A stretch of 64,000 nucleotides of DNA. Source: Nitrospirota bacterium (GTDB lineage Bacteria > Nitrospinota_A > UBA7883 > JACRGQ01). The notes below the pieces were generated by a model, which was not told the DNA's origin, made no database searches, and saw only the letters and a list, made by a program, of their open reading frames with translations. The stretch is from the NCBI GenBank assembly GCA_024275955.1, contig JAJRYD010000020.1, positions 62,001-126,000 of the forward strand, written 5' to 3'. Below are positions 3,401 to 19,635 of the stretch, one piece after another (within the stretch, counting starts at the first letter, position 1; each line of letters opens with the position of its first letter). The translations under genes were made by a program, and so were the position numbers.

Positions 3401-4909
3401 ATGGATAGCAAAAAAACATCGACAATAGCGGCATTAAAGAAGCTATTTCCAAATCACTTTCTTCTTTTTTTGACAGGCGCTGGGTTGTCCATTGCCCAGT
3501 TCATTATGGTGCGCGATTTTGTTACCGTACTTTATGGGGAAGAAGTTGTAATAACCCTTGTTGTCTCCGCGTTTTTTACCGGCATGTCAGCAGGCTATCT
3601 TCTTTCTCTAAAGCTTTCTGAAAAGGTTTTTAAGATATTATTTGCCGTCTCAGTTTTTCTCCATCTAACATTTCCATTTTCCTATCGTTATATCGCTGCA
3701 TACATGGCCCATCTGAACTTGGGCGGCATAGGGTTTATATTGCTGTTATTCGCGTACGCGTTTATTTTTTCTACGATATTCTCGGCCATTTTGCCGAGGT
3801 TTGTTCATATGGAAGAGAATAAAGATACCGAACGCGCTCTTGTAGAGTTTTACACCTCGGAGATAATAGGATTTCTAGCCGGATTCATTATAGTAGGGCT
3901 TACATGGAATAGGCCGCTAGGCCCCCTTCTTTTTGTTTACTGGGCAATTATCGGCATAATGCTACTGACCATCTGGCGTAGCTACGCCATTTTCACAGCT
4001 TACGCAGTGCTTGCTATTATCGCTGGATATAATTTTTCGGTTCTCGATAAACACAGCTCTTCCGAGCTTTATAGAGTAAAACACCGTGTCAAAGGAGCCG
4101 AGGTTCTTTATTCCGTAAACTCCCCGTACCAAAGAGTGGAGGTAGTGCGTTCCGGCAAAGGCGATATGATGCTGTATCTGGACGGGCTTTTAAACCTAAA
4201 CTCCACCGACTTGGAAGACCTAAACTATTTTTTGGCAGAATTACCGGCAAAACTTATAAAGCCTTCCAGCACGCTTATAATCGGAAACGGCACACTGTCG
4301 TCCGTGTCGAAGGTCTACCCGCATTCAAAAAAAACAATATCGGTAGAGTTAGACCCATCTGTACTAGAGGCAGGATTCCGTTTCTACACTCCACACGAAA
4401 AGCTATCGGCCTTTACCAACTGGCGGCTCTATAATGATGACGGCAAACATTTTCTTAAGCAGACTGATGAAAATTTTGATCTGATAATTATGGATATACC
4501 ATCACCGCTTACAATACAAGAGGCGGCCCTGCATACGGTAGAATTTTACAAACTTGCGCGCGAGCGGCTTACACCAAATGGAGTTCTTGCCGTTCAGCTT
4601 AGTGGAAAGCTTAGAAAAAATGACCGCTCTCCAGCGCGCATTACAGCCGCTCTTTCTGTTGCTTTTGAAGACCTGCTGGTTCTAAACAGTCCCCGGGCAG
4701 GGAGGGGATTTGCGTATGCTTCACGCAGTTTGCCTTTTAAAGCCAAAATGGTTGCTAAAGAAATATCCGGCTATGATAGAAAAACAAAAATATTTGAAGA
4801 TAAGCAGGTGCGAAAGAAGCTGACAAAAGCAACCGCTTTTTCTATAGATCATATGGACATTGTCTTAAGGCGTGGACTGGAGCGTTTTATGAACAGATAT
4901 TTCGATTAA
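3401..4909 (+). CDS. membrane protein with degenerate spermidine-synthase-like methyltransferase fold
   Basis: A 502-residue protein. Roughly the first 220 residues form several membrane helices of the kind found in 'fused MFS/spermidine synthase' proteins, including FYTSEIIGFLAGF. A soluble Rossmann-type domain follows, with LYLDG, the acidic strand end SVELDPSVLEAG, a DDGKHFL segment and LIIMDIPSP. These line up with the SpeE fold. The glycine-rich SAM loop is altered (IGNGTLSS instead of GGGDGG) and the polyamine-binding DxxDP is DIPSP, so true spermidine synthesis is unlikely. The gene is 15 bases ahead of a second membrane gene that looks like another copy of the same membrane module. 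Function is unknown. Confidence 0.7.
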   Translation: MDSKKTSTIAALKKLFPNHFLLFLTGAGLSIAQFIMVRDFVTVLYGEEVVITLVVSAFFTGMSAGYLLSLKLSEKVFKILFAVSVFLHLTFPFSYRYIAAYMAHLNLGGIGFILLLFAYAFIFSTIFSAILPRFVHMEENKDTERALVEFYTSEIIGFLAGFIIVGLTWNRPLGPLLFVYWAIIGIMLLTIWRSYAIFTAYAVLAIIAGYNFSVLDKHSSSELYRVKHRVKGAEVLYSVNSPYQRVEVVRSGKGDMMLYLDGLLNLNSTDLEDLNYFLAELPAKLIKPSSTLIIGNGTLSSVSKVYPHSKKTISVELDPSVLEAGFRFYTPHEKLSAFTNWRLYNDDGKHFLKQTDENFDLIIMDIPSPLTIQEAALHTVEFYKLARERLTPNGVLAVQLSGKLRKNDRSPARITAALSVAFEDLLVLNSPRAGRGFAYASRSLPFKAKMVAKEISGYDRKTKIFEDKQVRKKLTKATAFSIDHMDIVLRRGLERFMNRYFD

Positions 4910-4924
4910 AGGTGTGAGGTAGTT

Positions 4925-5434
4925 TTGAAAAATATATTCTGCTTTTTAAACGGTTTTATTTTTGCTTTTATGCAGTTCGGTTTTTTACTTATGCTTCAAA
5001 TTAATGTAACTTCTACCTATGTTACCTACGCGCTGGTCACAATATGCTGGATGGCAGGGGCGCTTGCCGGGCTTTGGATAAAAAGTTTAAACCCATTCTG
5101 GCTAATGGCGATACAGCCTGTCGCGTTTTATCTGGCCTACTTGTTGGCTACCTATGCTCCTTTTGCATCATTTACTTTTCCTTTGGCGGCATCTCTCGTG
5201 GCCGCCGCCGGCTTATGGGCCGGACGATTTTTTCCAGAAATGTTAAAAGCTGGTAAACGCACAGACTCGTTATTCTTTCACGAGAACAACGGTTTTATTG
5301 TCGGTGTGCTTTGCTTCTTTGTCGGTTTTACGATGCTTGGCAGGCCATTTTTATTAGCTGTGCCGATGATATTTGTTATCGTTCTTTTACCGCTGTATAA
5401 AAAAGCCGGTATCGCCTTAGCAGGTACCAATTAA
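4925..5434 (+). CDS. membrane protein related to the membrane module of SpeE-like fusions
   Basis: A 169-residue, almost entirely hydrophobic protein with about five or six membrane helices. It starts at a TTG preceded by GGTGTGAGG. The N-terminal pattern (aromatic-rich helix, then a TYVTYALVTICWMAGALAG-type helix) and FFHENNGFIVG near residue 117 match, in order, segments of the membrane part of the gene just upstream (SAFFTGMSAGYLL and FYTSEIIGFLAGF). It therefore looks like the second membrane half of a larger SpeE-like protein, encoded separately. The close spacing suggests one transcript and perhaps one complex. No catalytic domain is present. Confidence 0.65.
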   Translation: MKNIFCFLNGFIFAFMQFGFLLMLQINVTSTYVTYALVTICWMAGALAGLWIKSLNPFWLMAIQPVAFYLAYLLATYAPFASFTFPLAASLVAAAGLWAGRFFPEMLKAGKRTDSLFFHENNGFIVGVLCFFVGFTMLGRPFLLAVPMIFVIVLLPLYKKAGIALAGTN

Positions 5435-5469
5435 AAGTATCCCTATTTTTTATAGACTTCTTAGAAGTG

Positions 5470-5825
5470 ATGATTGTCGATGATGACGAAGCATTTTTAA
5501 AATTCTTTTGGTACGGCTAGAAGGGCTGGATGCCGAAATAGTCGGAGCGAAAAGCGGGAAAGAAGCTTTGCTTTCTATGCAGTCAATACTGTCGCACTTA
5601 ATTATTGCCGATTTGCAGGTGCCGGTTATGAATGGTTTTGAATTGATATGCCATCTAAAAAGCAACTCGAATACCGATTCGATTCCGATTATGGTTGTTA
5701 CATGCGACAATAATCGAGAGACCGTGCAAAAATCGTTTCAGCTTGGCGCGCAGGACTTTATCCCAAAGTCTATCTTAGGGGCTGACATTCTTTTAAGAGC
5801 CAAAAGGCTCATCGGATATTTGTAG
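5470..5825 (+). pseudogene. CheY-like receiver domain interrupted by a -1 frameshift
   Basis: Frame 1 from the ATG at 5470 reads MIVDDDEAFLK, a receiver N-terminus, then stops at 5518. The remainder is in the -1 frame and reads ILLVRLEGLDAEIVGAKSG up to the stop at 5825. Joining them by one -1 step at 5496-5502 gives a 118-residue receiver with no gap or extra residue between DDD and LE. All key residues are present: the acidic DDD, the phospho-acceptor Asp in IADLQVP, the Thr in MVVTCD and the Lys in IPKS. Either a one-base insertion in the T5A4 run broke it, or it is expressed by programmed frameshifting. An in-frame GTG at 5467 is an alternative start. It ends four bases before the convergent gltD stop. 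Confidence 0.7.
5496..5502 (+). other. candidate -1 ribosomal frameshift heptamer T_TTA_AAA
   Basis: The heptamer lies in the zero frame as T TTA AAA, the X_XXY_YYZ arrangement used by -1 frameshift sites, at the point where the two receiver frames must join. It is embedded in a T5A4 run, which is also a hotspot for indel mutation and sequencing error. I did not find an obvious strong stem-loop or SD-like stimulator by eye. Confidence 0.4.
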
Positions 5826-11966: not shown

Positions 11967-12305
11967 ACATTCAGGTGAGTCGATTCTAGCACTTTTGACT
12001 TATTTATCAAATTTTTGATGCAAAAGTTGACTTCAAATGTAGATTTAATTTGATATATTGCAGGCATAACTACTTTAAAAATAGCACGTTGCCCTCGTAT
12101 TACAATTCTTTAAAAAAACCAGCAAGAGGCGAACTTATCTCTCCTTTTAAATGCCATCTTGTTGATATTTTTTAAGTTTTTACAGCTTGCAAAGTAATAA
12201 ATGGTAATATTCCAATATTGCTATATTCTATAAACAACTTAAGTTTATAATTCTCAACTATCTGAAAATAAAGGGTAAATTTAGCAGTTTATCAGTGGCC
12301 GGTAT
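11967..12305. other. AT-rich non-coding stretch upstream of gltB
   Basis: About 340 bases without a supportable gene on either strand, AT-rich, with short stop-interrupted frames. It should hold the gltB promoter on the minus strand. I could not pick a convincing -35/-10 pair there. Confidence 0.5.
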
Positions 12306-12738
12306 CTAGGTGATTTCAGCATGCTCCATGAAACAGTTTTTGCCGCGACTGAAATTCCAAAATTGTTCCAGTAGGCGTTGTCCCTCCACAAGCTTTGCAT
12401 CAGACCATACCGCAATTTGAGGGTCGACATTGTTCTCCTCTAACTGCATTAAAATGAATTTGGCGTATGTAATCTTCCAGCAAGCCTCTCCGCCTCAGAA
12501 GATGATATGTTTGCCATACCCCGCCATATAAAGTTCAATGCCGGTTTCTATCCGCTCTCCCGTAGGCGCCGGCAAGTACAACTATCGCGTCTACTCTTTC
12601 CAGCGGGTCTTCAGTTATCAGGGTGGAAGCCAATCGGTTGAGCAGTTGAGCATGAAAGATGGTAAGAAATAAAATAGCTGTAACTAAAATGGAGAGTGTT
12701 AGAAGAAGAGGTTTTTTTGTTTGCTGTTCCATTCTCAT
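12306..12738 (-). pseudogene. decayed DUF218 (YdcF/SanA-like) envelope protein
   Basis: From the ATG at 12738 (or 12732, better spaced from GAGG) the frame gives a membrane anchor and then VDAIVVLAGAYG, the DUF218 start. After that the match continues only in the next frame (GERIETGIELYMAGYGKHIIF), so one extra G in the GGG run shifted the frame. A TGA follows in place of the Ser of the family's SGG motif. The frame then stays open with ITYAKFILMQLEENNVDP to a stop at 12306. The gene carries two lesions and is a remnant. It lies directly downstream of tRNA-Arg on the same strand. Confidence 0.7.
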
Positions 12739-12760
12739 AAACCTCTTTTTAACTTGCAAT

Positions 12761-12787
12761 CCCTCGCGGCTTGGCCGCGGGGGTTTT
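12761..12787. terminator. GC-rich hairpin beside tRNA-Arg
   Basis: CCCTCGCGGC and GCCGCGGGGG pair over 10 bp (one G-T pair) around a TTG loop, followed by TTTT on the plus strand. On the minus strand it lies just past the CCA end of tRNA-Arg with no T tract there. It probably ends the tRNA transcript or stops plus-strand readthrough. Confidence 0.55.
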
Positions 12788-18779: not shown

Positions 18780-19635
18780 TTGCCGGATACAAAATGTAGC
18801 GGAATCCGCAGGCAATGCAAAATCTTAAATATCCATCCCAGCGGTTTTTACGCGTGGAAGAAATCTCCACACTCCAGAAGACATTATGAAGACCAGAGAC
18901 TTGTTGGACTGATTAAGCAGTTCTGGCCGGATAGCGGTTCTGTATATGGTTATCGAAAGATACATGAAGATTTGCTAAGTGTCGGTGAGTTGTGCGGCAA
19001 GCATAAGGTAGCCAGATTGATGAGGCAGGCTGGGATAAAAGCTGAGGTTGGCTATAAGCGCAAACCTCGTATAAAGTCTGGGGCACCTTCGCATATCGCT
19101 CCAAACCTCTTGGAGCGAGAGTTTGACTCTGGTAAGCCGAATCAAAAATGGGTTACGGATATTACCTATATCAAGACAGCCGAGGGCTGGTTATTCCTTG
19201 CCGTTGTGCTAGATCTCTTCTCACGGCATATTATTGGTTGGTCTATGAAAAACAGAATGGAAAGGGATATCGTGATTAGTGCATTGATGATGGCTGTATG
19301 GCGCAGGAATCCAAAACAGCCAGTGACTACCCACTCCGATCAAGGAAGCCAGTACACCAGTTATGATTGGCAGAGCTTTTTAAAGTAGCATAACCTTATT
19401 GCCAGTCATAGCCGTAGAGGCAACTGTTGGGACAATGCAGCAGCTGAGAGCTTCTTCCAGTTGCTCAAGCGGGAGAGTCAAGCGTAAGGTCTATAAGACT
19501 AGAGATGATGCAAAAGCAGATATTTTTGACTATATCGAAATGTTCTACAATCCAAAAAGGAGGCATGGTAACAATAAAAATCTCTCGCCAATGGACTATG
19601 AAAAGAGTTACACTATGAAAGTAAAAAGTGTCTAG
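18780..19635 (+). pseudogene. IS3-family transposase OrfB, broken
   Basis: The frame from about 18780 gives the OrfB N-terminal region (HPSGFYAWKKSP, YGYRKIHEDLL) and the DDE core with WVTDITYI and THSDQGSQYTS. A TAG at 19386 interrupts it. The same frame continues with NCWDNAAAESFFQLLKRE, which contains the catalytic Glu. Near 19475 about two bases are missing and the match moves to the next frame (RKVYKTRDDAKADIFDYIEM...) up to the stop at 19635. All three DDE residues survive, but not in one frame. Confidence 0.9.

Follow-up and report, generated by a model that had tools for sequence, protein, structure and literature searches.

A receiver domain divided between two reading frames in the genome of a Nitrospirota bacterium is probably a recent pseudogene fragment of the C-terminal receiver of a hybrid histidine kinase. 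The locus lies in the window, by which we mean the whole stretch of 64,000 nt that was analyzed (GCA_024275955.1, contig JAJRYD010000020.1, positions 62,001 to 126,000). Set against its unbroken relatives, the locus has both of the marks by which a pseudogene is recognized, a frame break and a missing kinase part. The frame break, the homology, the absence of the kinase, the single frames of the relatives, and the other broken genes nearby and in the genome are all direct observations.

Two reading frames of one receiver domain

The features of the locus are as follows, in window coordinates.

5470..5520, forward strand: frame-0 piece with the first strand and the acidic pair (translation; profile match of the joined product)
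5487..5825, forward strand: −1 frame piece with the rest of the receiver (translation; PF00072 match alone)
5487..5517, forward strand: stretch that holds the frame change; homology gives no finer placement (join scan)
5496..5502, forward strand: T_TTA_AAA heptamer within a T5A4 run (sequence; not kept in relatives)
5505..5554, forward strand: possible hairpin 3′ of the heptamer (predicted fold, −19.2 kcal/mol)

From ATG 5470, frame 0 reads MIVDDDEAFLKFFWYG, which begins MIVDDDEAFLK, and ends at TAG 5518-5520 after only 16 residues. In the −1 frame, an open stretch runs from 5487 until TAG 5823-5825, and a single −1 step joins the two pieces into a receiver domain of 118 aa. Against PF00072 (Response_reg, curated cut-off 30.2 bits), the joined product scores 67.9 bits as compared to 55.3 bits when the −1 piece is taken by itself, and this higher score indicates that the short frame-0 half is truly part of the domain. 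The acidic pair D4/D5, the phospho-site D48, T78, and K100 are all present in the joined product, and only when both frames are joined are the score and the active-site residues of a PF00072 member found together. A continuous open frame with a start, as expected of a functional receiver gene, is precluded by the frame-0 stop. The initial annotation had described a CheY-like receiver whose halves are related by a −1 shift and whose active-site residues are all conserved, and the translations, the profile scores, and the five residues bear this out.

Probable origin of the domain among hybrid-kinase receivers

Among the relatives examined, none is closer than the receiver of G010:C260, from a genome of the same family; the two share 50% identity across 116 residues. 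This receiver forms the C-terminal domain of a hybrid kinase whose sequence was read as PAS-HisKA-HATPase-REC, and it ends at the same position as the window receiver. The window copy groups as the sister of G010:C260, with a support of 99/98, in a tree built from 38 receivers. Of the remaining close receivers in the class, nearly all are C-terminal domains of hybrid kinases in one open frame, and PAS-HisKA-HATPase-REC hybrid kinases are abundant in the same bacterial family. The phylum is sparsely sampled, the source genus having no second member in the comparison set, and no orthologue more than 50% identical was found in the class and phylum search (24 genomes, none of the same genus) or in a search of genome contigs.

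The window copy is thereby like the C-terminal receivers of hybrid kinases in its active site, its C-terminal end, and its place in the tree, whereas it differs from them in that the PAS-HisKA-HATPase part is missing and the receiver is split over two frames. If joined, it would also resemble the single-domain (CheY-like) response regulators as a lone receiver of ∼118 aa. However, it is not one open frame, and its nearest relative is a hybrid-kinase domain rather than a single-domain protein.

A kinase-tail profile built from 37 hybrid kinases gives nothing significant 5′ of the receiver. The frame at 5431-5469 (LKVSLFFIDFLEV) is faintly similar to a HATPase tail and was considered as a remnant, but it was rejected as it adds only 2.5 bits to the 37-kinase profile. 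Because an upstream kinase remnant is undetectable, the hybrid-kinase origin is argued from the sequence relationship alone. The gene upstream (4925-5434) matches G006 over residues 1-158 of 169, and G006 has both of the genes found upstream in the window, with no receiver after them. These genes (3401-5434, forward strand) encode two membrane proteins, one carrying a spermine-synthase-like domain and the other, of 169 aa, matching no Pfam family, and their adjacency is kept in several genomes of the class.

No clear ribosome-binding site precedes ATG 5470, which is weak evidence as only 20 of the 44 genes in the window have one. A promoter scan gave no excess over chance, and no terminator-like site was found near the fragment. 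The fragment lies tail to tail with gltD. A hybrid histidine kinase of G007 (L092, G007:C85) has the same layout; the shared gltD position was rejected as a sign of kinship and is taken as coincidence only, given that the G007 receiver is not the sister of the window copy in the tree.

Placement of the frame change

Every possible join was scored against a profile of 37 hybrid-kinase receivers from related genomes. Within 5487-5517 the −1 step can follow any codon with a score of 114.9-116.3 bits, a range of 1.4 bits with the heptamer site at 116.3, and alternative joins of two bases give 107-114 bits. In this comparison, homology favors a one-base step but does not allow its placement on T_TTA_AAA. 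The join had initially been annotated as exact at the heptamer; the one-base −1 step and the heptamer itself stand, whereas the exact placement does not, as joins across 5487-5517 score alike.

In the coding sequence of the window, an in-frame X_XXY_YYZ heptamer occurs in 4.2% of 31-nt stretches and a mononucleotide run of at least 5 in 21%. The heptamer at the frame junction is a mild coincidence, and the T5A4 run is also a plausible indel site. The initial annotation had named conservation of T_TTA_AAA and of the split in orthologues as a check, and neither is kept in the relatives examined. All 37 hybrid-kinase receivers, the best only 50% identical to the window copy, are single open frames with no split at its position, and none carries TTTAAAA there (one of the 37 has a different in-frame slippery heptamer nearby).

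Possible decay within the receiver

Conservation of the domain extends to the active site and not beyond it. Of the 35 columns with a conservation of ≥75% among the relatives, 11 are altered in the window copy, as many as in the worst relative (range 0-11, mostly ≤7). Leave-one-out profile scores are ∼122.7 bits for the window copy, 127-162 for 36 of the 37 relatives, and 109 for the remaining one. The score and the departures, with the active site spared, would fit either early decay or a divergent receiver. The codon usage of the joined fragment (0.717) is at the low end for genes in the window (5th percentile 0.716), a value too weak for use. The retention of all active-site residues is a point against the pseudogene reading, since it means that any decay would have to be recent.

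Gene decay or a base-calling error

The main rival to a pseudogene mutation is that one base of the T5A4 run was miscalled or misassembled, which would hide an intact stand-alone receiver of ∼118 aa starting at GTG 5467 or ATG 5470. An error is favored by the short homopolymer run around which the break lies, by the intact active site, and by the draft state of the genome (56 contigs). We nevertheless consider it unlikely based on the condition of other genes, including two in the window.

18780-19632, forward strand: IS3-type transposase (HTH_21, rve), interrupted first by a stop in frame near 19386 and downstream of that by a frame change
about 12280-12786, reverse strand: DUF218-like gene, in which a frame change and a stop interrupt the reading frame

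Read through, the DUF218-like gene scores 25.4 bits (E 1.5e-5), slightly below the curated cut-off. Because both genes have stops besides frame changes, and stop codons are not a product of indel errors, they point to real gene decay in the genome, beyond base-calling errors alone. Systematic indel errors were also considered as a cause; such errors are not rampant, given that the main ORFs in the window and the majority of the receivers in the genome are unbroken.

The genome has 68 Response_reg matches, and that of the window is the only one above the cut-off that was flagged with internal stops. Partial matches reveal two more frame-split receivers. In C52:56.2k (L135, G000:C52:55900-56800) profile positions 1-76 match in one frame and the tail in another, and in C29:66.7k (L134, G000:C29:64500-67600) the pieces are in different frames; the remaining pieces of both were assigned by eye and from match positions. 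No slippery heptamer was found at the main breaks of either receiver. A mutation or a sequencing error had been proposed at the outset as the competitor of programmed frameshifting; a pseudogene mutation is now the best-rated explanation and an assembly error its main rival.

Programmed frameshifting as an improbable alternative

Programmed −1 ribosomal frameshifting at T_TTA_AAA would produce the receiver of 118 aa in a fixed, low amount. As in the −1 frameshift genes dnaX and IS3/IS911, an X_XXY_YYZ heptamer lies within the overlap of two frames and is followed by a possible hairpin, and the active site of the product is intact. The hairpin has a z of −2.55 against dinucleotide shuffles, and 1.8% of 58-nt stretches of the window fold as well. 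However, its outer pairing starts 2 nt past the heptamer, the strong inner stem (from 5514) starts 11 nt past it, and both spacings fall outside the 4-10 nt rule that the authors of PMC4066793 apply, which comes from IS3-family elements. U_UUA_AAA is also absent from the most efficient E. coli motifs of that study (V_VV.A_AA.R, H_HH.U_UU.Y, U_UU.A_AA.G, C_CCC_CCC, and A_AA.G_GG.G), and no Shine-Dalgarno-like stimulator was seen 5′ of the heptamer by sequence inspection. Unlike dnaX and IS3/IS911, the window copy shows no conservation of the signal, no upstream stimulator was seen, the hairpin spacing is outside 4-10 nt, the join is not localized, and the frame-0 product of 16 aa is not useful. 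Further points against recoding are that the gene is a kinase-less fragment and that the two other frame-split receivers of the genome have no heptamers at their main breaks. With the relatives unbroken and without T_TTA_AAA at this place, the initial suggestion of a programmed event at a canonical slippery heptamer finds no support, and we regard it as very improbable.

A lineage-specific variant, in which a single-domain receiver evolved from the hybrid-kinase tail after kinase loss and has its synthesis limited by a −1 frameshift at codon 11, is slightly less probable still. The least probable alternative is translation of the −1 ORF by itself from TTG 5508 into a 105-aa non-phosphorylated binding domain without the first strand and the acidic pocket; the ORF exists, but it is missing that strand of the fold, no Shine-Dalgarno-like sequence was seen before 5508, and no similarly truncated protein was seen among the relatives examined.

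A probable leftover of a larger sensor-kinase gene

For the pseudogene fragment, the sequence relationship suggests an ancestral hybrid histidine kinase of the PAS-HisKA-HATPase-REC type. Its kinase part would have been lost and the receiver tail left behind, and a one-base frame change, probably a real fixed mutation, would have broken the receiver around the first helix. No complete receiver would be made from such a locus; the most to be expected is a peptide of 16 residues or a truncated protein lacking the acidic pocket.

Were the shift programmed, the locus would be a rare frameshift-controlled signaling receiver, and no finding here demands that. The case illustrates that a slippery heptamer found where two frames meet can hint at recoding even though homology leaves the join unplaced, and that heptamer-free frame breaks in the same genome temper such a hint. 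Most likely the locus is an ordinary one, the remnant of a larger sensor-kinase gene now in decay rather than a site of deliberate ribosome slipping.
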